Source: Dehalococcoidales bacterium (GTDB taxonomy: Bacteria; Chloroflexota; Dehalococcoidia; Dehalococcoidales; UBA2162). Taken from it: 64,000 nucleotides of DNA. The notes under the pieces are model-generated. The model searched no databases. It was not told the origin of the DNA and saw only the letters and a list, made by a program, of their open reading frames with translations. Location of the stretch: contig JAFGCW010000045.1 in the NCBI GenBank assembly GCA_016932435.1, positions 9,070 to 73,069 of the forward strand. The letters are read 5' to 3'. Below are positions 40,890 to 53,627 of the stretch, one piece after another; within the stretch, counting starts at the first letter, position 1, and every line of letters starts with the position of its first letter. The position numbers and the translations under genes were made by a program.

Positions 40890-41040
40890 GTTATTTAACA
40901 CGCTCTCTGTCCCGCAGGTTAAATGAATATGCTGAATACCGGCAATGCAATGTCTTCACCGATCCTGATTTCAATATAGAAATACCCTTGCATACATGTT
41001 CTTCTCCAGATACAATAACAGCCAAATCCGGTATGAAACC

Positions 41041-41382
41041 ATGCATGAGCAGAACATATGCGAGTCCCTTTTAGCCCTGGCTATTAAGCATGCCGAACAG
41101 GCGAATGCCGACAGGATTCTGAGGATATACCTTGTTGTCGGTGAATACTCCGGCGTTGTCGATGAGTCCGTGGTATTCTATTTCAATTTACTCAGTAAAG
41201 GCACGATCGCCGAAGGCGCCGATATTGACTTCACGCATGTACCGGCGCAGTTACGCTGCCGTAACTGTAATACCGTTTTTACTCCCGAACATCTCAACCT
41301 GCGCTGTCCCAACTGCAATGAGCAACAGGTTGAAATAGCTTCGGGAAAAGAGATGTACCTTGAAAGCCTACAGGTGGAATAA
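41041..41382 (+). CDS. hypA: hydrogenase/urease nickel incorporation protein HypA
   Basis: Delivers nickel during [NiFe]-hydrogenase maturation. The start MHEQNICESL is diagnostic (His2 is the nickel ligand) and two CxxC pairs, CRNC and CPNC, form the zinc site in the C-terminal half. Length 113 residues is normal. I start at ATG 41041 because the HypA start MHE must be the first residue; the upstream in-frame ATG would bury it. The gene is alone here: no hypB, hypC-F or hydrogenase lies in the window. Confidence 0.93.
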   Translation: MHEQNICESLLALAIKHAEQANADRILRIYLVVGEYSGVVDESVVFYFNLLSKGTIAEGADIDFTHVPAQLRCRNCNTVFTPEHLNLRCPNCNEQQVEIASGKEMYLESLQVE

Positions 41383-41517
41383 CCGGTAATATTGGTAGCA
41401 AATACCATGTTTTGAAGTTTCATTCTGATGAGAGTATATTACTTTATCATGAAAGACTTTATAGCCTGTTTACGGCAAAAAACGACCGGGAAAGACAGCA
41501 ATAAAAGGAGAATTTAA

Positions 41518-42645
41518 ATGGCAGAAAATGATATATACACCGAACTTGCTGAGAGACTTGGCGCACCAACATCGGAACGCTTTATGGCTATCCTGCACGA
41601 GATGTTTACGCCTGAAGAGGCAGGTGTTTGCCTGGAATTATATATTCCCGGCACCATAGAGGATCTCAAGAAAGCGCTTGGCTATGACGAAGCTACCATA
41701 ATCAAAATACTTGACAGCCTTATCGACCGCGGCATACTTACCCGTGGGGAAACATTGTTCGCTTTCCATTCCAGCCTGCTGGGTTTCCACCATGATATCG
41801 CTGACACCGGTGTCCACACCGGTCCGAACGCCCTTCCCCAGAAGGTAAAGGACCTATGGGCAGACTTCTTCTGTAATAAATGGTCCGACATCTGGGTTAA
41901 ATCCGCCAGCGACAGGAAAGCCGCCGGAGGTCAGGGTATTATGCTGACTCCTGCTATCGGTGCTCTTGAGATCAGTAATATCTCCGATGACGACCTCGTT
42001 ACCCAGGAAAACTGGAAAATGCAGATAAAGCTTGCCAAGAGACGAATCATCGCACCCTGCGGCTGCCGGGTACTCTGGGGCAAATGCGACCACCCTCTGA
42101 TGACCTGCTTCGCCGTGTTCGATAACTCCCGCGGGACATATTACCTGGACAAGCCGGGACGATTACTCAAGGAATATACCGAGGAAGAAACACTCGAGAT
42201 CGTCCGTCAGAATGAAGAAGCCGGGCTTGTCCACTGGGGCGTCTGCTACTGCTGCGCCGATGCCTGTGAAATGCTCCATTCGTATACCAAGCATGATAGA
42301 CTCGATCTTGTGGAACCTAATCGTTTCCAGGCAGCAGTGGATGAAGAAACCTGCGTCGGCTGCCAGGATTGCGTCGAGAAGTGCCCCTTCAACGCGGTTG
42401 AGATGGTAAAGGTACCGGGTTCCAAGAAACTCAAGGCATCGATTATCGCCGAGAACTGTAAGGGCTGCGGCGTCTGCGTTGTAGGCTGTAAGCAGAAAGC
42501 GCTGAAACTCGATATAGTCAGGCCGAAAGAATACATGAAGACCCGTGAATTCAGGTTCCCGGCGCCGGAACCGAGTAAGTCCGGACGGCGTATTCCGGTC
42601 AACGCTCCGATAGGTCCCTACGGCGGCTTCTACGAGCTTGGATAA
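41518..42645 (+). CDS. multi-cluster iron-sulfur protein with N-terminal winged-helix-like region
   Basis: A 375-residue protein. Residues 1-80 look like a helix-turn-helix (CLELYIPGTIEDLKKALGYDE...LTRGETLFAF). The central part holds Cys clusters APCGCRVLWGKC, TCFAVF and WGVCYCCADACEM. The C-terminal third holds two 4Fe-4S ferredoxin motifs, CVGCQDCVEKCPF and CKGCGVCVVGCKQKA. It is likely an electron carrier or redox sensor. An AAAAGGAG site is seven bases before ATG 41518. It is followed after 33 bases by an SDR gene. Confidence 0.8.
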   Translation: MAENDIYTELAERLGAPTSERFMAILHEMFTPEEAGVCLELYIPGTIEDLKKALGYDEATIIKILDSLIDRGILTRGETLFAFHSSLLGFHHDIADTGVHTGPNALPQKVKDLWADFFCNKWSDIWVKSASDRKAAGGQGIMLTPAIGALEISNISDDDLVTQENWKMQIKLAKRRIIAPCGCRVLWGKCDHPLMTCFAVFDNSRGTYYLDKPGRLLKEYTEEETLEIVRQNEEAGLVHWGVCYCCADACEMLHSYTKHDRLDLVEPNRFQAAVDEETCVGCQDCVEKCPFNAVEMVKVPGSKKLKASIIAENCKGCGVCVVGCKQKALKLDIVRPKEYMKTREFRFPAPEPSKSGRRIPVNAPIGPYGGFYELG

Positions 42646-43660: not shown

Positions 43661-45046
43661 TTACGCAACCAGTAGTTTTACAATCTCAGAAACGTTGTCC
43701 ACTTTTTCCAGGTTGTTAATCATATTCAGAGCTTTTTCCGCGTTTTTCTTCGATATCCTGCCGCAGAAATCAATGTTGTGCCAGTACTTCGCCGTCAACT
43801 CGTCCTCGGTAAGCGGGAATTTGGGAAACCCCCTGCTCTGCGGATGATTGAAAACAGCAGCATACTCTATGCCGTTTTTCATCTTGACGATGAGTTCTTC
43901 TCTTATCGGATCAGTCTGTGTTGTCGGCATATGCTGTACCTTTCCGCACAGTTCGATAACCTCCGGTTCCTGTATGGCTTCTTCGGTGTAATGCTCAAGC
44001 CTGGCGCCTTTTCTGAGCAAGACACTAGCAGCACTGTACCCCTGATAGAAGAGTGCCGCCGAGTGAGAATCACCCTTCTTGAACGGTATTGCTCCGTAGC
44101 TATTCAACTGTCCGGGATGAATACCAATAATAATCTCATTGATTTCTCCGGCATCGATTTCGTGTTCCGCGACAATATCCAGTCCGCAGTCGATTATATT
44201 ATGATTCCCCTGGCAGGAAGGATATTTCTTGTGGCGGCTTTTTACGTAAAACTCCTTGCCAAGATCGCGATTCATATACTCCGGGTGATGAGGTTTCGGG
44301 TAATAACTGTCAAAAAATCCCTGGACGCCGAAAAGCGGATCTTTAAGCCCGGTAAAGCCGTTCTTGGCCATCAGCGTGGATATGATGCCGTTACGGGCAG
44401 CCATCGCCCCATACAGCTTGAACGTCATGGCTCCGTCCCATAACGAGCGAAAACTTCCGGCCACCATGTTCGTTAGAATGCCGAATGAATTATAAAGCTG
44501 TTCTTCATCCAGTCCCATCAGCCTTGCGGTAATACCGGCTGCACCGAATGCATTTATCGTACCGACAGGATCGAAGGGATGATCGAAGGAAAGTCCTCCT
44601 ACGAAGGCAATCCGCGATGCCAGGTCACCACCCAGGATGACAGCACTGAGAAGGTCCTTGCCGCTGGCACCGGTATACTCTGCTACGGCCAGCGCCGCCG
44701 GTACTGTCGAACTCTGGACATGACCGGGAAACATTCCCTCGTTCTGTCCGAAAGCATCAGGGCCGGTACATTCGAAATCATATGACCTCGCCTGGAGGCT
44801 GTTCATCATCGCGGCGTGGGGTAACGGCACTCTGTCCCCGTGTACCAGGATCGTCGCTTCTCCGTTTCCACCCCACTGCCTGACCAGGTTGAACAGAGCC
44901 GCATTACCCGGACCGTTATAACCGCTGACCATAGTACCCGCCAGGTCGATCAACTGCCGTTTCGCATCCCGTATCACTTCCTCGTTGAAGGCATCATAAC
45001 CTGTATCCAGCATATTTTGAATCAGTTTCCGTGTTTCTGTTTCCAT
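43661..45046 (-). CDS. MmgE/PrpD family protein
   Basis: A 461-residue protein of the 2-methylcitrate dehydratase superfamily. Family features: DLAGTMVSGYNGPGNAALF near the N-terminus, HAAMMNSLQARSYDFECT, GLSFDHPFDP, GAAGITARLMGLDEEQL and KKYPSCQGNHNI in the core. The N-half is the dehydratase fold with the hexapeptide NAFGAAG. Members catalyse stereospecific hydration or dehydration of carboxylic acids (PrpD, aconitate decarboxylase); which here is not decided. AGGGAGG precedes ATG 45046. It is the last gene of the five-gene minus-strand operon starting with EtfB. Confidence 0.88.
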   Translation of the reverse strand: METETRKLIQNMLDTGYDAFNEEVIRDAKRQLIDLAGTMVSGYNGPGNAALFNLVRQWGGNGEATILVHGDRVPLPHAAMMNSLQARSYDFECTGPDAFGQNEGMFPGHVQSSTVPAALAVAEYTGASGKDLLSAVILGGDLASRIAFVGGLSFDHPFDPVGTINAFGAAGITARLMGLDEEQLYNSFGILTNMVAGSFRSLWDGAMTFKLYGAMAARNGIISTLMAKNGFTGLKDPLFGVQGFFDSYYPKPHHPEYMNRDLGKEFYVKSRHKKYPSCQGNHNIIDCGLDIVAEHEIDAGEINEIIIGIHPGQLNSYGAIPFKKGDSHSAALFYQGYSAASVLLRKGARLEHYTEEAIQEPEVIELCGKVQHMPTTQTDPIREELIVKMKNGIEYAAVFNHPQSRGFPKFPLTEDELTAKYWHNIDFCGRISKKNAEKALNMINNLEKVDNVSEIVKLLVA

Positions 45047-45077
45047 AGAACACCTCCCTGTCTCAGCGATGATACTA

Positions 45078-46706
45078 TCAAGACTCCTTCTTATCTCTTT
45101 TATCCGAATATTCCGGCGGAATGTACCCCGACCAGTCAGCCACCCTGTTGGGATCGAGCATATTTCTTACCTGCTGCAGCCAGTAGTCCGAGTTATCGTA
45201 AATAGGTCCCCATCTCTGGTGAATATGTTCGATATCCTCGACCTGCATCATCGCTCCGCGATTGGTATAACTGAAACGCTTGAAAGGACTGTTGACGTCA
45301 TATACCATGTCCATGTATTCCCTCGCCGAAGCCAGTGACTCCGGGTCGAAGGGATCATAGCCGGTAGCGATACCTCCCGACGAACCCAGCGCATAATGCT
45401 CCATCGGTCGATACGACATCCCAAGGTTAGGCTGTACGATAGACCCACGCTTGCTGAAGGACTTGAACGCGTCGAACTCAACCGGACGGTAGTTCAACTG
45501 CATCTCCGTAGAGCCGTCAGCTCCCTGGATGGATACCATGATATCGCCTGTCCCTCTCGCCATCCCGACACCCGTCGACCATATCTGGTACATGAACATC
45601 TGGCATTTTATCTTGTTATTGTTATACTCCGGGTCCAGGTAACCGCCCCACTTCTCCATGACGGTCAACACCGCTTTTTCCCGGTATTCCAGTTCGCGGC
45701 GGGAATGACCGTTGACGAACACCGGCACCGACCTTTGAATCTTGGTCGGGTCCGACTGCGGTCTTTCCTGCATCTTAGCCCAGGTTTCGTCAGCGCCTTC
45801 TTCGCCGAAACCGGTTGCCATGTAAGCAGGAGCCACGATACAGGCAAGTTCCGCCTGACCTATCTCCGTTGAGGCTCTCATCATCTTCTCCACATCAGTG
45901 AAAGTGAGGACGTTGACACGGTAATTATCGGGAATTTTCGTTATCTGTGCGGCGGAAAGGGCTTGTCCCGGCTCTCTCACCATGTCGAACTTCGATGGTG
46001 GATCGGCATACCACGGATAGAGTTTGACCGAGCACTTGGTGATGACTCCGTGGCCGCCGTTAGCTCCGGCGCGACCTCTGAGTATCCCCCTCAGACTGAA
46101 TCCCGGTCCGTCTCCCGAAAACCAGCCGCCTTCTCTCCCGGCAGTACCCAGGTTCAGTATCTCACCTGTCGGCAGCACCCATTCGCAGCCCAGGACGTTA
46201 CGCCCGTAACCGCTGGTGTAAATCTGGGAAATGGTCATCTCCTGGTGACAGCAGGCCAGCGAAACAACCGAGGCGCTGTAGCCCACACCCGGCTTGCCGA
46301 CGTAATACCCGAGTTTACCCGCTGTATCCAGGAGCTGGTACATCGTAACGAACGGTTCAACGACCGCATGGGCGTTCTTTTCATCTATTTCGATAATTCT
46401 GTTCAATCGTTTTAGTTCCAGCAGTATTCCCCTCTCGCTGCTCAGGTACGTTGCCACATACTCGAAGGCACGGGCCGAAGGTTTGAACAAAATTCCGGCC
46501 TTGTTGCAGAACCTGACTATCTTCTGGATTTCCTCGACACTTCCCGGTAACAGTACCGCCGCCGGAGGACTGTGGTATTTTTCGCCGAAAGCCAGTTTAT
46601 TCCCCCAAACCTGGTTATAGCTCTCCATAATCACCGGTTCCTGGGTGATGTACTCGGGACCGACTATATCTTCAAGCGCTTTATATTCATCTTTGGTAAG
46701 TTTCAT
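45078..46706 (-). CDS. FAD-binding (PCMH/vanillyl-alcohol-oxidase type) oxidoreductase
   Basis: A 542-residue flavoprotein. The FAD-binding PCMH domain is at residues 50-250 (AVLLPGSVEEIQKIVRFCNKAG, VEPFVTMYQLLDTAGKLG, GVGYSASVVSL). The C-terminal part resembles the substrate domain of 4-cresol dehydrogenase and D-lactate dehydrogenases. I start at ATG 46706 (GGAG eight bases before); an upstream in-frame ATG would add 52 residues with no domain match. It sits between the CCG protein and the MmgE/PrpD gene. It likely oxidises a hydroxyl or phenolic carbon and passes electrons to the Fe-S partner. Confidence 0.85.
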   Translation of the reverse strand: MKLTKDEYKALEDIVGPEYITQEPVIMESYNQVWGNKLAFGEKYHSPPAAVLLPGSVEEIQKIVRFCNKAGILFKPSARAFEYVATYLSSERGILLELKRLNRIIEIDEKNAHAVVEPFVTMYQLLDTAGKLGYYVGKPGVGYSASVVSLACCHQEMTISQIYTSGYGRNVLGCEWVLPTGEILNLGTAGREGGWFSGDGPGFSLRGILRGRAGANGGHGVITKCSVKLYPWYADPPSKFDMVREPGQALSAAQITKIPDNYRVNVLTFTDVEKMMRASTEIGQAELACIVAPAYMATGFGEEGADETWAKMQERPQSDPTKIQRSVPVFVNGHSRRELEYREKAVLTVMEKWGGYLDPEYNNNKIKCQMFMYQIWSTGVGMARGTGDIMVSIQGADGSTEMQLNYRPVEFDAFKSFSKRGSIVQPNLGMSYRPMEHYALGSSGGIATGYDPFDPESLASAREYMDMVYDVNSPFKRFSYTNRGAMMQVEDIEHIHQRWGPIYDNSDYWLQQVRNMLDPNRVADWSGYIPPEYSDKRDKKES

Positions 46707-46740
46707 TTTCAGTCTCCTTACGTTCCGTTCGTTCGAGGGT

Positions 46741-48018
46741 TCAAATGGATTGCTGGACAAGTTCGATAATATCCAGGACCTCGATCGAATCTCCGGTTTC
46801 CCGCGCGGCGTCGAGGAAATTTCGCTTGCACCAGGGACAGGCGCTGACAATAGCTTCCGCACCGACCGCGTGAGCTTCTCTTAACCGTTCGTTTGCTGTC
46901 CATCTGGCGAAATCCGGAAAAGCATCTATCACACCTCCACCGGAGCCGCAGCACCAGGCATACTCCCTGATCCGGTACATTTCCACAAAATCCACGCCCG
47001 GAATACTGTTGATTATATTCCTGGGAGTGTCGTAGACCCCGTTGGTGCCCCGCCGGTATTTCTTCGGCGGGTCATGCAGGTAGGTGAGTGTTCCCGGTGG
47101 TTTGTATTCTTTCCCTTCCCAGTGTATCCACGGTTCGCCCAGCCTTCCGAGATGGCAGGGGTCATGGTACGTAACTTTGAGGGGCAGGGACTTCTTAAGC
47201 CGGAGTTTTCCTTCCTGTATCAGCTTCTCGATATACTGGGTGATATGATAGACTTCAATTCCCAATCCTTTGCCTGTTTTATCATAGAGTACCTTAAAGG
47301 TGCTGTAACAATCCGAACAGGGAGTCACCAGCACCTTTACTCCGGCTGTTTTCAATGCTTCCACCTGGTGTTCGGCGAACTTGATGAGTTCGCCTTCATA
47401 GCCCAGTTCGTAGGCACGACCACCACAGCAGGATTCATCCGCCCCCATGATACCGACATCAACGCTGGCTTGCTGGAGCAGTCTCACTCCGGATTGAGCC
47501 ACCGGCCATAATTCTTTATCGTAGGAATAGCGGCATCCGGCAAAATACAGGACCTCCGCTGTCTCATCAGTAACGCGTTTAACGTCCAGGTCTGCCGCCC
47601 AGTTACCCCGTTCCGAGCGTGGTTTCATCATCATGTTGTCTTCTTCCCGCAGATTCTTGATCAGCGGCAGGTGCTGGGGCAGTAAATAACCTTCGTCGAC
47701 ACACTTAATCCTTAGTTCCTGCATATGCTGCAGCGGTTCCAGGTCGTTCCCAACCTTGCATGCTATATCACAGGAACCGTCCATCAGGCACTTATAGAGA
47801 ATGTCGAGAAACGTATCATCGATTTCAATCCTTTCCTTTAGCAGTGAATAAGAAAGGTTGAACTTGCCGCCGGCAGCATAGGCGTGCCAGTGATACCTGG
47901 CAGCCGAAGGACAACCCTCCATGAAATCGAAATTTTTAATAAACCGCCACGGTATATACTTACAGTATGAGCAGCGGGGACATCTCTGCATATCGTGTTC
48001 GTATTGTTCCCAGTTCAC
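46741..48018 (-). CDS. CCG-domain iron-sulfur oxidoreductase (HdrB/GlcF-like)
   Basis: A 425-residue protein. Two cysteine-rich CCG domains are clear: ESCCGGRAYE ending in TPCSDCYS, and YHDPCHLGR...WCCGSGGGV ending in ACPWCKRNF. These bind non-cubane clusters in heterodisulfide reductase HdrB or the GlcF/LutA family. The N-terminus has CPRCSYCKYIP, and a CLMDGSCDIACKV pair for further clusters. GTG start at 48018 with AGGAGGT; it overlaps the FAD gene stop by four bases (GTGA), so the two are coupled. It is the expected electron partner of the two flanking FAD proteins. Confidence 0.9.
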   Translation of the reverse strand: MNWEQYEHDMQRCPRCSYCKYIPWRFIKNFDFMEGCPSAARYHWHAYAAGGKFNLSYSLLKERIEIDDTFLDILYKCLMDGSCDIACKVGNDLEPLQHMQELRIKCVDEGYLLPQHLPLIKNLREEDNMMMKPRSERGNWAADLDVKRVTDETAEVLYFAGCRYSYDKELWPVAQSGVRLLQQASVDVGIMGADESCCGGRAYELGYEGELIKFAEHQVEALKTAGVKVLVTPCSDCYSTFKVLYDKTGKGLGIEVYHITQYIEKLIQEGKLRLKKSLPLKVTYHDPCHLGRLGEPWIHWEGKEYKPPGTLTYLHDPPKKYRRGTNGVYDTPRNIINSIPGVDFVEMYRIREYAWCCGSGGGVIDAFPDFARWTANERLREAHAVGAEAIVSACPWCKRNFLDAARETGDSIEVLDIIELVQQSI

Positions 48019-49505
48019 GAGATTACCTCCTTGTTCCGGTCCTGTTTAAAACACAATTTCCCTGGATTCAGTATCCAGTTGGGATCGAATATATTCTTGA
48101 TTTTCTTCTGCATCTCGGCGGTATCGCCAGCACGCCGGTAGGCAATGTCTGCCCAGTCGCCGTAAGGTCTGGAAAAGAACGCTCCTTGTTCTTCCAGCTG
48201 GTCGACCGCTTCAATCTCGATTTTCTTCACCATGTCTAATTCTTCCCGGTTATCGTTATCATAATAAAGGTCGAATTCGCAGTGGCAGCTTGTGCCCTGC
48301 GCCACCGGCTGGATATAGACTCCAATATTTTCAGCGGGAAATCTCCGCTGCTGTGCTAATCCGGATACAAGATTTGAGAACCGGGGAGTATTACCCAGCG
48401 TAGTCAGGAAAAACACATCCCTGAAACTGCCTTTCATTCTCTGTTTCCAGTAAGGTTCATCTGAAGGCTTCGACAGGAGGTCGGCAAAATCTTCGGCCTC
48501 AACCGATGCAATACTATCGTGAATTTCAAGCCCGTACTTCTCTGCCAGTTCCCTCAGGTCTGCTTCCAGGTACTGGACTTTCTCATCTGGTAAAGGACCG
48601 TACCCTTCGCAGGTAACGAACAGTACCCACTCAGGCAATTTGTCCTGTAAAGTCATTATCTCCTGAGAATCGTTACCGGCAAGGCAGGCAAGGTTGACGT
48701 TATTAAGTATGAATATATTACCCGTGAAGCGTATACGTGTCAGGTAGTAGGTTAACTCGATGAGAGGTTCCAGGCTGGAACCGGTAATAAAAAAGGCACG
48801 TCGCAATTCAGACAGGAACCGGCATTTCAGGGACATCCAGGTAACGATGCCGACAGTTCCCTGGGCTCCAGATATCAATCTCTGTGGGTCCATCTGGGTC
48901 GGGCCGAAGGGACTTATCTGGGCTTTGCCTATCTCCCATTGTTCCTCAAGTGTATCCGGGCCGGATGCCTCGCCGGTTCTCAGTTTATCCCCTGTTCCGA
49001 AGACGATCTCCGCGCAGAGCATAGGATCAGTACTGTCGAAATGCAAGCCCGGCATCAGAATGGGATCCCGCTCCAGCACGCTGGAAAGCACTGACTTGGT
49101 ACTTCTGGGCGCCAGCGGCATATAGGCGCACATCCCGTCTTTTGCAAGTTCATCCTGAAGTTCTTCGAACGTGACGCCCGGTTCAACGATCGCTACCCTG
49201 TTGGAAGCGTCGACTCTTAAAATTTTGTTCATCCTTCTCAGGTCGACTATTACCGCATTTTCAGCGTCCGGTATAGTATCTCCTCTTAAATGGGGCGATC
49301 CAGAACTCACAGGGACAAGAGGGATTTTCTGTTCGTTAGCCCACCTGACGATTTCCTGGAGTTCGTCAGTACTGGCAGGTCTTACGGCACAACTCGGAAA
49401 TTTCAAGGGGTAGCCATTCGAGTCTGCTACATATTCTTTAAGTTTCCCCGAACCAGTCAGGACATTTTCTTTGCCGACTATTTTTTCAAGTCCGTTTTCG
49501 ACCAT
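48015..49505 (-). CDS. GlcD-like FAD-binding oxidoreductase
   Basis: A 496-residue flavoprotein of the glycolate-oxidase/D-lactate dehydrogenase type. Segments VRPASTDELQEIVRWANEQ, VPVSSGSPHLRG, VEPGVTFEELQDELAKDG and SGAQGTVGIVTWM define the PCMH FAD domain; the ending NIFDPNWILNPGK is the typical FAD-oxidase C-terminal tail. I start at ATG 49505 because AGGAGG is six bases before it; an in-frame ATG 15 bases upstream is inside that region. The EtfB gene lies 49 bases upstream in transcription. Together they resemble an EtfAB/LctD type lactate-dehydrogenase module, but EtfA is missing here. Confidence 0.88.
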   Translation of the reverse strand: MVENGLEKIVGKENVLTGSGKLKEYVADSNGYPLKFPSCAVRPASTDELQEIVRWANEQKIPLVPVSSGSPHLRGDTIPDAENAVIVDLRRMNKILRVDASNRVAIVEPGVTFEELQDELAKDGMCAYMPLAPRSTKSVLSSVLERDPILMPGLHFDSTDPMLCAEIVFGTGDKLRTGEASGPDTLEEQWEIGKAQISPFGPTQMDPQRLISGAQGTVGIVTWMSLKCRFLSELRRAFFITGSSLEPLIELTYYLTRIRFTGNIFILNNVNLACLAGNDSQEIMTLQDKLPEWVLFVTCEGYGPLPDEKVQYLEADLRELAEKYGLEIHDSIASVEAEDFADLLSKPSDEPYWKQRMKGSFRDVFFLTTLGNTPRFSNLVSGLAQQRRFPAENIGVYIQPVAQGTSCHCEFDLYYDNDNREELDMVKKIEIEAVDQLEEQGAFFSRPYGDWADIAYRRAGDTAEMQKKIKNIFDPNWILNPGKLCFKQDRNKEVIS

Positions 49506-49554
49506 TAATGACCTCCTCATAATAAAGGATATAGTTAATACGGAATATCTAAAA

Positions 49555-50346
49555 TCAGATTACATTGATTTCTTTCAGCTTGATCGCGAGGTTCGCCGCC
49601 AACTCTTCGGGGCTTGTAGCTTCCAGTATTTCGCAGCTTTCCGGGTATACCGGGGTATTCATTTTCACTATGGCCTTGTGATCGGTATCGCTTGTTTCTA
49701 TTCCCAGGTCTTCGGCGTCCCAGGTTGTAACAGGCTTTTTTGCAGCGGATACAAATGCTTCCATGTCCGGTTTTCTCAGGATTCCAACCTCGCCTGTCAC
49801 AATAGCGAGTGCTGGTGAAGCAGTCTCGATAATCTCGTAACCATCTGACAATGTCTTCTCAATTCTTAAAACATCACCGTCAAATTCAACTTTTCGCGCC
49901 GCTGTGATACAGGGAATATTCAGTATGTCGGCAATACGGCTGCCTACCTGACCGTTATTGGTATCGGCTGCCTGCAGACCGCAGAGGACCAGGTGGACAT
50001 CTTCCAGCTTCTGTATTGCCGCGGCAAGAGCCATAGAGGTAAGAGACGTGTTGAATTCATCGAAAACCTCGTCCTGTAAAAGGATCAGCCGGTCGGCTCC
50101 GGCAGCCAGGGCTGAAGTCACGACGGCTTTGGTCAGCTTTTTCCCCAGGCTGATCACGGTGATGGTAGCTTCCTGTGCGTCTTTTATTCTTAACGCTGCT
50201 TCAAGTGCATTCTCATCGAAGGGACTTAATACCGGCGGTGTTGCTCTCGGCGGAATCGCCCGTTTGGCTTCGGTATCGATTTGAAAGAGGGACAAGGGCA
50301 TTTCGGGATCGAGTACCTGCTTCATGCACACGACGATATTTTTCAT
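49555..50346 (-). CDS. etfB: electron transfer flavoprotein beta subunit (EtfB)
   Basis: A 263-residue EtfB. MKNIVVCMKQVLDPEMP begins as usual, and LSPFDENALEAALRIKD, AGADRLILLQDE, LVLCGLQAADTNNGQVGSRIADIL and LSDGYEIIETASPALAIVTGE follow the family. EtfB normally pairs with EtfA to hold FAD and AMP and shuttle electrons from flavoenzymes to the membrane or to a bifurcation partner. No etfA is found in the operon, whose later genes are two FAD proteins, a CCG protein and MmgE/PrpD. It is the first gene of this minus-strand operon with only a weak ribosome site (GAAAG). Confidence 0.92.
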   Translation of the reverse strand: MKNIVVCMKQVLDPEMPLSLFQIDTEAKRAIPPRATPPVLSPFDENALEAALRIKDAQEATITVISLGKKLTKAVVTSALAAGADRLILLQDEVFDEFNTSLTSMALAAAIQKLEDVHLVLCGLQAADTNNGQVGSRIADILNIPCITAARKVEFDGDVLRIEKTLSDGYEIIETASPALAIVTGEVGILRKPDMEAFVSAAKKPVTTWDAEDLGIETSDTDHKAIVKMNTPVYPESCEILEATSPEELAANLAIKLKEINVI

Positions 50347-50650: not shown

Positions 50651-52033
50651 ATGGCAAAATTTATCGGATTACTACCATATATATATTTTTTTGATGAACC
50701 ATTTAGTATTGGGAGAATTACTTTTTTCAGTGTTCCCGATATTAAGGGAAGAGATATGTATCCAAAAAGGATGATTGATAGAAAACGACTCCATGAATTA
50801 ATTAATTGTTTTCCCGTATCTCGCGGTTTAAAATCGGATAAGGGTGTGGTACGCTCATTTACTTATTTTCTGATTGATAATCCGAGGAAAAATCATACGC
50901 AAATACATGCCGATGCAAAAAAAGCGGTTACAATTTTACGATATTTAATGTTACGTCCGGATAATCAAGGGATAGATGATTTGGAGACAAGTGCTGTTTA
51001 TCTTTTTGAGATTCCACCTACAGGAAGTAAAGATACGCGTATCTATCACGGATGGATAAATTTCAATCAAGAAGAATGGTTAAGGCCTAAATATCAGAAA
51101 TTTCATCCTCCAGGCTGGAATGTAGATTGTATAATCAAACATACTTCCGACCTTGAGGATTTAGATGTTATAAATCACCAATTGTATAACAAATTACTAG
51201 ATAGCGATACGGAGTCAAATATTATACTCGCAATGGATTGGTATAATTTGAGTTTTCAAAGGTATTCTATTCGTGATATTGCAGGTCACTTAGTTGATAT
51301 CGCTACCGCATTTGAGACATTGTTCCAATTACCACGACACTATAAAACAGCAAAATTTAGAAAGCACATAAGAGAAACATTCGACGTAGAAGAAGGTTCA
51401 GTATTAGATGATTGGGCTAGACATTTTTACGTCGATGTCCGTTCTGAAACTATTCATGCTGGTAAGCCTATGTATTATCTATATAAACACCCGGATGCTT
51501 CCAGTGGGCATCTTAGTTTTCTTTGGTCCGCTCAAAAAATATTTCGAGCGTGCATCGCAGTTAAGTTAGGACTGAAAAGAAATATAGAAAACGATTTTCT
51601 ACTGGAAGAGTTAATTCCAAATGAAGTTGTTTTAAAAAGACTTAGGGATATGGGTTCATATGCAAACATAAAAGATAAAGGACTAACAGATATATGGAAA
51701 TTAAGACAACGTTATCCGGTTGGTGATAAAGAAAATATAATCTGGCTTGGGAATACGCTGTTAACAGAATTCTTGGGCCATATTCCTCAGGATAATCTAA
51801 CAGCATTGGTATCTAGTATTCAGTCTATTCTGCATAGTGGTGTTGATGATGATATGCTATGGTCAAAGTATGTAAATCTAGATAGAGAATTATCTGATAT
51901 CTTGTTTAAGGATAATACAGAAAAAGCAAAGCAATTATCTAGTTGCATACATTTAGCGTATGATGTCTCAAAGTTCAGTAATTTTGCGTGGTATGCTCTT
52001 CAGATACTGACATTTACGAAGAACGCTAATTGA
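50651..52033 (+). CDS. HEPN-like (Apea-type) protein of unknown function
   Basis: A 460-residue protein with unusually AT-rich codon use compared with its neighbours. The region around residues 215-275 (DIAGHLVDIATAFETLFQLP, then RHFYVDVRSETIHAGKP) resembles HEPN domains of the ApeA class: R264-x4-H269 is the RxxxxH core seen in HEPN RNases. The N-terminal half is without a recognised domain. Many HEPN proteins act in phage defence or toxin-antitoxin systems; a lone gene of foreign composition fits that, but no partner is seen. Leaderless or near-leaderless start at 50651. Confidence 0.55.
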   Translation: MAKFIGLLPYIYFFDEPFSIGRITFFSVPDIKGRDMYPKRMIDRKRLHELINCFPVSRGLKSDKGVVRSFTYFLIDNPRKNHTQIHADAKKAVTILRYLMLRPDNQGIDDLETSAVYLFEIPPTGSKDTRIYHGWINFNQEEWLRPKYQKFHPPGWNVDCIIKHTSDLEDLDVINHQLYNKLLDSDTESNIILAMDWYNLSFQRYSIRDIAGHLVDIATAFETLFQLPRHYKTAKFRKHIRETFDVEEGSVLDDWARHFYVDVRSETIHAGKPMYYLYKHPDASSGHLSFLWSAQKIFRACIAVKLGLKRNIENDFLLEELIPNEVVLKRLRDMGSYANIKDKGLTDIWKLRQRYPVGDKENIIWLGNTLLTEFLGHIPQDNLTALVSSIQSILHSGVDDDMLWSKYVNLDRELSDILFKDNTEKAKQLSSCIHLAYDVSKFSNFAWYALQILTFTKNAN

Positions 52034-52138: not shown

Positions 52139-53491
52139 TTACCTTATTTTCCTCTTCGGTATTCTGAACTTGCTGTTATCTACACTCGGAAGGGCTTCTT
52201 CTACCGGTTTTTCGAGCTGAGGAATCCATTCATAAGGCAGCCGGTAGGCACGGTAGACCACACTCAGATTACCCCTTTTGTCTTTCCAGGGACTGACGAA
52301 TTCCCAGACTATTTCTCCCTCGGTGTTCACCTCGATCAGCCGGCCGGTCCCGCCTTCAGTGATAAGCGTATTTCCGTTGAGCAGGCGTTGTGCCGAACTC
52401 ATGAACGAGCTATACAGCCTGCCGCCAATTCCGGGACCACCCGGTCCGCCCGGCGCCGGATACTGCCATTTAATCTCCAGCGTCACAGGATCGAACTCGA
52501 TTACCCGTGAGTAATCTCTCAATGCATTACTCCTGCCGTCAGGAGAACCCGGATTGGGAGCGCCGTATCCGGCCATTCCGCCGTTATCGTACACAAGGAT
52601 ATTCCCTGCACCCGGCAGACCTTCAGGTATCATATGGACATGATGAGGACCGATTATCTGTCTCAGCTTCCTTAACGCTTCCGTCTCCGTGTAATACGGC
52701 CCGACTTTCCAGATGATGTTTCCGGTCTTCTTCTCGATTATTGCAAGTATATTGGTTTGCCTGCTGCTGAAAATCAGGTTCTCGGGATCGAATCTCTCGT
52801 CACCCGATATATACCATTTATTCGGCCCCAGCTTGGATATCGAATTCATGTGCAGCCAGTCGCCCATTCCCCCACCGGCCGGGACTATACCCGGGTTACG
52901 TGCCATCGTGTTCTTTGCTTCTTCACTGAAACCGAACTCACTGAAGTGGTCGCTGCCTACCCATTCCCACACTATCTCCCCATCCCAGGTAACCTCGATA
53001 ACCGTATCGTCTATCAGCAGCTTTTCACTAATTTCCTTATTGATCAGGTTTTTATGGCAGACCATGATGGTATTGCCGCTGTCTACCTTCGGCTCCATCC
53101 CCGGAACATAGTATCCGACCGGATTGCCGTCACGCTGGTAGTCATGGTGCTGGCGTGCCATCCATGTCTTCTTTCTGTGCGGATCCCTGACCAGGTCATA
53201 TCTATCGAAACTCCAGACGGTGTTTCCCTCCCAGTCGAGCTGAACCAGGTTCACATTATCCTGAAATCCGAACTTCGGATTCCTCTGGCCGGTCGTTCCC
53301 ATGATATAGCCGCCGGGAAATATCTTGTTCGCACTGGGAAGTCCCTGGAGATTTTTCCATCGTTTTACCAAGTTTCCGTTCATATCCACCAGGGCAGCGC
53401 CGAACTGCATGCACTGAAGAACGGTGAAGCCATTCCAGCACTTTTCCGGGTCATATATCGTCGTTCCTGTCGGGAATACAGATATTGACAT
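52139..53491 (-). CDS. arylsulfotransferase-like beta-propeller protein
   Basis: A 450-residue protein of the ASST (Arylsulfotran_2) type. WTMNSIS-like GDWLHMNSISKLG and HHVHMIPEGLPG supply the conserved His residues, and the repeated W-D-G-E/N-G-x-hW motifs (QLDWEGNTVWSF, EVTWDGEIVWEW, NTEGEIVWEF) are propeller blades. True ASST is secreted and transfers sulfate from aryl sulfates; this protein has no signal peptide, so a cytoplasmic lyase, esterase or binding role is also possible. I chose ATG 53491 (AAGGAG nine bases before). The long upstream open frame over the MFS gene is a coincidence. Confidence 0.78.
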   Translation of the reverse strand: MSISVFPTGTTIYDPEKCWNGFTVLQCMQFGAALVDMNGNLVKRWKNLQGLPSANKIFPGGYIMGTTGQRNPKFGFQDNVNLVQLDWEGNTVWSFDRYDLVRDPHRKKTWMARQHHDYQRDGNPVGYYVPGMEPKVDSGNTIMVCHKNLINKEISEKLLIDDTVIEVTWDGEIVWEWVGSDHFSEFGFSEEAKNTMARNPGIVPAGGGMGDWLHMNSISKLGPNKWYISGDERFDPENLIFSSRQTNILAIIEKKTGNIIWKVGPYYTETEALRKLRQIIGPHHVHMIPEGLPGAGNILVYDNGGMAGYGAPNPGSPDGRSNALRDYSRVIEFDPVTLEIKWQYPAPGGPGGPGIGGRLYSSFMSSAQRLLNGNTLITEGGTGRLIEVNTEGEIVWEFVSPWKDKRGNLSVVYRAYRLPYEWIPQLEKPVEEALPSVDNSKFRIPKRKIR

Positions 53492-53627
53492 AATTAACTC
53501 CTTAAGCGTATTTGTGACTCTGTTTTCAGACATAATACAGCATATTTCCCGGTGAGTAAAAATTGACTTATCAACATTCAACCCAATATACTTCAAACAG
53601 CTACATTCCGGAGTCTTATTTTCCTCT

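Follow-up and report, generated by a model that had tools for sequence, protein, structure and literature searches.

A lone EtfB beside a FAD-CCG-FAD flavoprotein module in Dehalococcoidales, and the EtfA it may borrow

Introduction

Electron-transfer flavoproteins (ETFs) are normally described as fixed pairs of one EtfA and one EtfB subunit, and an operon that encodes only one of the two raises the question of what half of such a pair is doing there. The case considered here lies in a 64-kb stretch of DNA (64,000 nucleotides, the window in the following) from a Dehalococcoidales bacterium, in which five genes that share the minus strand, from 50346 down to 43661, encode EtfB, a first FAD protein (FAD1), a CCG-domain iron-sulfur (Fe-S) protein (CCG), a second FAD protein (FAD2) and a MmgE/PrpD-family protein. 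A reading made from the sequence alone had seen in this assembly a possible new flavin-based electron-transfer complex for hydroxy-acid oxidation. The answer favoured here, to which a probability of roughly 0.58 is given, is that a module-specific EtfB has lost the EtfA of its operon and borrows in trans an EtfA of the same clade.

The module and its ETF genes in relatives

Searching the window by tblastn with eight EtfA queries gave no EtfA (best E 0.15). The EtfB-FAD1-CCG order of the operon, with the same gap of 49 bases between the EtfB stop and FAD1, recurs in L155, which among loci of known context is the nearest (the place also listed as L001, in genome G001; EtfB at 83%), and an assembly artefact is rejected because the junction is identical in this independent metagenome-assembled genome (MAG). 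FAD1-CCG-FAD2 is the conserved core trio of a module that occurs in relatives alone, with EtfB and EtfA, or with EtfB only. The operon order is conserved in part: that of the trio is constant, whereas EtfB stands either ahead of FAD1 or between FAD1 and CCG, and MmgE/PrpD was rejected as a core member, since the window and L002 (36% identical) are the only annotated module loci that have it beside the trio.

Two samples of genomes define how often each form is found. In 393 genomes of Dehalococcoidia, the class of G001, a CCG match at E <=1e-110 was obtained in 20 genomes at 23 places, the surroundings of all of which were examined: nine carry EtfB without EtfA, one (in G196) carries both subunits and 13 show no Etf, the last group including two places cut by contig ends (L189 and L191) and one with no FAD1 seen (L199). 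A search with EtfB added two EtfB-only loci, one cut within CCG (G181) and one whose FAD protein and CCG are more distant (G170). Counting the window, EtfB-only loci number 12, of which 10 have flanks of 1.5 kb or more on either side of EtfB; those of G149 and G097 stop with their contig inside EtfB, so that an EtfA may lie farther out. The second sample comprised 395 genomes from the phylum to which G004, a MAG of the Desulfuromonadaceae, belongs; 37 of them match at 1e-95, at no fewer than 63 places. Of the 20 Desulfobacterota-type loci examined, seven encode both subunits on one strand, a single locus has EtfA where its contig ends and 12, several of them on short contigs, show no Etf; EtfB alone was seen in none of these 20. 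In a first scan both subunits had been found in L004, L007 and L008, and also in L006, but there on the opposite strand.

The sequence-only reading had taken the lack of etfA as the mark of a new complex. However, etfA adjoins etfB in the modules of L002, L004, L007, L008 and L148 and in the above seven of 20 Desulfobacterota-type loci, an outcome that this reading had itself named as one that would count against it; the absence of etfA is neither the sole state of the module nor, most simply, the first. Among loci of known context, the EtfB tree places L002, with the order EtfB-EtfA-FAD1-CCG-FAD2-SDR-MmgE, as the sister of the window and L155 (support 97/95), some metagenomic EtfBs of unknown context being closer to the window than L002. 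Similarly, L148 and L303 read FAD1-EtfB-EtfA-CCG-FAD2-FixC-like, and L145, L160 and L201 show the identical order minus EtfA. Across a tree of 28 EtfBs the EtfA state changed three times or more (3-5 over the bootstraps), and a single origin of the EtfB-only state, i.e. one clade for all EtfB-only rows, was rejected (p-AU 1.5e-87, in a test set up after an earlier tree had been seen). An etfA-bearing sister and matching orders with and without EtfA most simply suggest that etfA was lost repeatedly while etfB was kept, although gain of etfA in some lines is a possible alternative that is compatible with the state count. A search of the literature, at the level of the titles and abstract openings listed, found no description of an EtfB kept without EtfA. 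Twelve loci, at least three changes of state and the purifying selection described below argue that the EtfB-only state is not accidental.

Two further arrangements were observed in these genomes. A FixC/geranylgeranyl-reductase-like FAD protein lies 3' of FAD2 in L144, L145, L148, L160, L188, L201, L302, L303 and L304; the four tested match PF01494, and this sub-group is present in both sampled groups. Two more EtfBs without EtfA were noted: in L147 (G476:C42, 1-8595) a lone EtfB (54%) stands opposite four FAD2-like proteins arranged in tandem, with no FAD1 or CCG adjoining, and in L256 (G181:C206, 5331-7261) a further one adjoins an acyl-CoA dehydrogenase gene.

Sequence retention in the lone EtfB

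The EtfBs of EtfB-only modules are under purifying selection, with a ratio of amino-acid-changing to silent differences (pN/pS) of 0.225 between the window and L155; three further EtfB-only pairs give 0.20-0.28, with silent sites saturated in one. Retention was scored at 111 positions that are at least 90% conserved in 29 paired EtfBs of type 1, the EtfBA pair common in these genomes, for 10 EtfB-only rows and eight module rows with EtfA. The EtfB-only rows keep 75.5% of these positions (window 76/111) and the module rows with EtfA 68.5%; the corresponding figures are 77.1% and 62.5% for the 14 positions of the C-terminal arm (window 8/14), and 75.5% and 70.5% for the FAD/AMP segment, so that the loss of FAD/AMP motifs for which the sequence-only reading had proposed to look is not seen in the alignment. 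A degenerate EtfB is rejected on the strength of this retention and of the selection on the gene.

The recognition loop behaves differently, being kept at only 21.7% in EtfB-only rows and at 39.6% in module rows with EtfA. Loss in the loop in excess of the rest of the protein (p < 0.05) was found in all 10 EtfB-only rows, in two of the eight module rows with EtfA and in one of 11 canonical rows, these rows being related rather than independent. A scan in 10-residue windows with one EtfB-only row per line, run after the loop had already drawn attention, ranks starts 190-192 (residues 190-201) at the top, with 83% changed. In the structure of Ldh-EtfAB the loop forms the fixed interface with the dehydrogenase, and the arm of EtfB is, together with EtfA, part of the shuttle domain (PMC9232219). 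An arm that is kept beside a loop that has diverged therefore points to a changed face towards the partner enzyme and a largely unchanged face towards EtfA.

Two more signatures are informative. The aromatic residue at position 43, which we take to touch the flavin of EtfA, is kept in 10 of 10 EtfB-only module rows. None of the 10 EtfB-only rows (the window included), the eight module rows with EtfA or the 29 type-1 rows has the SPT anchor of bifurcating EtfBs, which is present in six of 11 canonical rows; in L147 the letters SPT occur elsewhere, within its loop. The nearest sequence to the window EtfB in the Protein Data Bank (PDB) is CarD.

EtfA elsewhere in the genomes

Fifteen genomes of relatives were searched for ETF_alpha (PF00766) and ETF (PF01012), in assemblies that are mostly incomplete and in which absences are accordingly weak. 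Thirteen hold an EtfB without a neighbouring EtfA; this EtfB belongs to the module in 11 of them and stands outside the module in two, G476 and G003. In 10 of the 13 (G137, G180, G223, G402, G159, G170, G476, G003, G097 and G181) each EtfA found has an EtfB within about 2 kb, and in eight of the 11 genomes with EtfB-only modules all EtfAs found are already paired with an EtfB of their own. In G160 and in G149 there is one EtfA that lies at a contig end, and G001 has one at a contig start and a second, split over the ends of contigs C98 and C59, with no EtfB adjoining. Directly upstream of this split EtfA (L255 on C98, L151 on C59) lies an aldehyde:ferredoxin oxidoreductase gene, and C98 also carries a ferredoxin-like gene. 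A dedicated solo EtfA in every relative is rejected, none having been found in 10 of the 13 genomes.

What the EtfB-only genomes do have is an EtfA of the module's clade at another locus: it was found in 11 of 11 genomes with EtfB-only modules, vs six of 14 with EtfB+EtfA modules, a contrast with a one-sided hypergeometric chance of about 0.003 if kinship is ignored. The eight genomes of the latter group in which no second EtfA of this clade was found (G002, G004, G540, G714, G590, G555, G894 and G542) are again mostly incomplete assemblies.

The FAD1, CCG and FAD2 proteins and known systems

By sequence, the solved structures closest to both FAD1 and FAD2 belong to the VAO/4-cresol dehydrogenase family, which makes the label 'GlcD-like' given by the sequence-only reading a loose one. 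The AlphaFold2 model of FAD1 (pLDDT 84.9, from 28 sequences) has as its best fold match vanillyl-alcohol dehydrogenase/oxidase, with a TM score of 0.82 to vanillyl-alcohol dehydrogenase; the model of FAD2 is weaker (pLDDT 73.7) and matches D-lactate dehydrogenase first and VAO enzymes next. The FAD1 family profile was aligned with LctD across 8-488, the best stretches of the other matches listed ending near 267 or earlier. The FAD-oxidase C-terminal domain (PF02913) is matched weakly in FAD1 (22.9 bits against a cut-off of 21.2) and by Pfam not at all in FAD2, and is thus confined to the first FAD protein. Mean column identity, from three alignments with differing sets of loci, is 41% for FAD2, 57% for FAD1 and 62% for CCG, and the high variability of FAD2 would be in keeping with a role in substrate specificity. 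In the alignment ten CCG cysteines are counted for the CCG protein; its second N-terminal cluster motif reads CxxDxxCxxxC in the line of the window, with C, D or G at that place in most relatives, and the Asp in place of Cys suggests an Asp-ligated or 3Fe cluster. Its best PDB sequence match is chain 9ojn, presumably mycobacterial EtfD.

The FAD-CCG-FAD part of a combination that the sequence-only reading found unfamiliar was published in 2026; the EtfB-only form is the part that did not appear in the listed titles and abstract openings. Heterotrimers of this kind are described from anaerobic benzene degraders, as 'Magic' #24-26 (PMC13101534) and BzS1_12970/80/90 (PMC13416013), and both papers, cited here as far as their text was available, put the flavoprotein at or near anaerobic benzene activation. 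The likeness to the window rests on the papers' descriptions rather than on sequence identity: the order FAD protein, Fe-S protein with two cysteine-rich domains, FAD protein is the same; in BzS1 as in the window a FAD-linked oxidase C-terminal domain is described only for the first FAD protein; and the sizes are similar (54.5, 46.5 and 65.8 kDa in BzS1, PMC13416013; 496-501, 425 and 542 residues in the window). In Magic #25 two of the four cysteine motifs are reported to be without cysteines (PMC13101534). The descriptions available name no Etf gene within those operons, whereas the window has EtfB and MmgE/PrpD; in BzS1 an abundant EtfA3B3 is proposed as a possible electron acceptor of the flavoprotein (PMC13416013), and in ORM2a EtfAB is described as adjoining glutaryl-CoA dehydrogenase. 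The Magic cluster adds genes for an acyl-CoA synthetase, MaoC and a CoA-transferase (PMC13101534); Pfam scans of 30 window proteins, a subset of the open reading frames, showed no acyl-CoA synthetase, MaoC or type III CoA-transferase, and among relatives an AMP-binding gene lies immediately upstream of FAD1 in L185 and a type III CoA-transferase gene is present in L146. Distant syntenic homologues of the BzS1 proteins are reported from organisms that do not use benzene (PMC13416013), which argues for a family wider than benzene.

Three other systems share part of this architecture. Glycolate dehydrogenase (GlcDEF), like the window, combines two FAD subunits with one CCG Fe-S subunit, but the window proteins fall far under the NCBIfam cut-offs for GlcD and GlcF. 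The lactate dehydrogenase Ldh-EtfAB of Acetobacterium woodii (LctBCD) also has EtfB adjoining a PCMH-type FAD dehydrogenase, LctD, spanned in full by the FAD1 profile, but the window operon lacks EtfA, hence also an EtfA with a ferredoxin domain, and SPT, and has in addition CCG and a second FAD protein. In mycobacterial EtfD, an ETF to menaquinone oxidoreductase, the CCG domains are thought to accept the electrons of ETF; the protein is described as having 1042 residues, against 425 for the window CCG protein, which by motif position lacks the Thr and His changes reported for EtfD (PMC13083937).

Proposed reading and alternatives

FAD1, CCG and FAD2 would form a soluble GlcDEF-like dehydrogenase, in which one or both FAD proteins oxidize an organic substrate and the CCG protein conducts electrons inside the complex. 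EtfB would be the module's own docking subunit for ETF; the operon having dropped etfA, it would pair in trans with a same-clade EtfA from another locus, usually that of the type-1 EtfBA, and the hybrid ETF, directed to the complex by the changed recognition loop of EtfB, would shuttle electrons between the complex and the ETF acceptor of the cell. Such an ETF would probably be non-bifurcating.

Several observations weigh against borrowing in trans. With 13 of 23 Dehalococcoidia places lacking Etf, the ETF is optional to the module, and the recruitment of Etf genes to the FAD dehydrogenase Ldh, i.e. a gain, has been proposed (PMC6085437). A second same-clade EtfA exists in G196, G836, G689, G006, G007 and G008 in spite of their module EtfA (in the last three it adjoins its own EtfB), and the EtfB-only genomes all belong to a single class, type-1 pairs being common there, so that the contrast of 11/11 with 6/14 is partly one of kinship. 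The EtfA clade that includes the module EtfAs, supported at 100 and 99 in two trees, drops to 62 in the widest, and in G003 no EtfA of that clade was found. The loop is altered in module rows with EtfA too, so that its change marks the module and not the loss of EtfA, and the lone EtfBs outside the module, in G003 and G476, have A and N in place of the aromatic residue at 43. Lastly, the pairing in trans we infer from genomes and sequences alone, as we do the formation of the complex, the preference for loss over gain, the direction of electron flow and the substrate.

The alternatives fare less well. That EtfB works without any EtfA, as a permanent component of a complex of four proteins with FAD1 or FAD2 standing in for the EtfA flavin, would agree with the recurrence of EtfB-only modules and with the 10 of 13 lone-EtfB genomes in which every EtfA found has its own EtfB neighbour; an EtfB released from EtfA is, however, expected to lose the arm and the aromatic residue at 43, and the lone module EtfBs equal or surpass the paired ones of the module in their retention of the arm and have kept the aromatic residue without exception, which makes this solution unlikely. 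Just as doubtful is a dedicated, rather than shared, EtfA at a distant locus: the unaccompanied EtfA of G001 beside the aldehyde:ferredoxin oxidoreductase gene is of the right clade, but no unpaired EtfA turned up in those same 10 genomes.

Decay, in which EtfB would be a relic without function in the module after the loss of etfA, might be read into the 13 places without Etf and into the repeated changes of EtfA state, and is improbable in view of pN/pS values of 0.20 to 0.28 in four EtfB-only pairs, of reading frames of full length in the 10 loci whose flanks are clear, of the occurrence in several lines, and of short gaps and a shared strand. Least probable of all, and hardly to be expected, is that the operon encodes a bifurcating complex similar to Ldh-EtfAB and acting on lactate or some other hydroxy acid. 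The alignment of FAD1 along the whole of LctD and the D-lactate dehydrogenase folds nearest to the weaker FAD2 model speak for it; the missing SPT anchor, an operon without an EtfA bearing a ferredoxin domain, and the VAO-family aryl-alcohol enzymes that head the fold matches of FAD1 speak against it.

Taken together with borrowing in trans, the module is a known FAD-CCG-FAD enzyme with an optional ETF that, most simply, gave up its EtfA several times and retained EtfB, not a new type of complex born without EtfA. A broader version, tentative and judged to have somewhat less than an even chance of being right, is that Dehalococcoidia run an ETF with exchangeable subunits: one EtfA would serve several EtfBs, each aiming the shared flavin shuttle through its recognition loop at a different dehydrogenase, and the window operon would carry such an aiming subunit for a FAD-CCG-FAD complex of the benzene type.

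Layout and surroundings of the operon

The coordinates are collected in table 1. The five-gene order and places on the minus strand given by the sequence-only reading agree with the present analysis, as do its 4-base overlap of the FAD1 and CCG genes (at 48015-48018), the lack of EtfA at the operon and the combination of a single Etf subunit with two distinct FAD proteins and one CCG protein, which recurs in relatives.

Table 1. Features of the operon in the window, in order of transcription.
Feature	Coordinates	Strand	Basis
EtfB (263 residues), ETF beta subunit without adjacent EtfA	49555..50346	-	PF01012 (E 5.7e-33); alignment and trees
49-base gap where L002 has etfA (about 1 kb)	49506..49554	-	L002 gene order; start analysis
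FAD1, VAO/PCMH-type flavoprotein with FAD-oxidase C-terminus, 496 residues from the likely start	48015..49505	-	PF01565, PF02913
CCG Fe-S protein (425 residues), two CCG domains and N-terminal cluster motifs	46741..48018	-	PF02754 (twice); alignment
FAD2 (542 residues), second VAO/PCMH-type flavoprotein	45078..46706	-	PF01565; alignment; AlphaFold2 model; fold search
MmgE/PrpD-family protein (461 residues), co-directional	43661..45046	-	PF03972, PF19305 (N- and C-terminal domains)

The start of FAD1 is probably at 49505 rather than at 49520 (which would give 501 residues), because AGGAGG directly precedes the former ATG and because L155 lacks the first ATG and keeps AGGAGG and the second. The ATG of FAD2 at 46706 has AAGGAG in front of it, and with these two starts the remaining intergenic gaps are of 49 bases or fewer. 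Clear ribosome-binding sites precede FAD1 (at 49505), CCG, FAD2 and MmgE/PrpD, that of the last being strong. Scans gave 12 promoter-like sites, vs 8.5 (standard deviation 2.9) in shuffled sequence, and 10 terminator-like sites, vs 7.5 (standard deviation 2.3). The nearest PDB sequence to the MmgE/PrpD protein is IDS-epimerase.

Divergent from the operon, a 460-residue protein (50651-52033) has no match in Pfam or NCBIfam; an arylsulfotransferase-like (ASST) protein is encoded at 52139-53500, with MFS transporter and SnoaL-like genes nearby. The ASST-like neighbour may hint at an aromatic substrate. On the other side of the operon (40996-42645) lie a HypA-like protein and then a 375-residue protein with ferredoxin domains.

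Concluding remarks

The observation of an EtfB without EtfA stands, and on stronger ground than the sequence-only reading could know, but its meaning shifts towards that of an optional ETF minus its EtfA. The enzyme shares its architecture with the benzene-linked flavoprotein, and the coming and going of Etf genes beside it in relatives points, in a manner that can be tested, to ETF as the electron partner of that flavoprotein. If pairing in trans is true, the subunits of ETFs would be mixable, and one electron carrier could be aimed at different enzymes.

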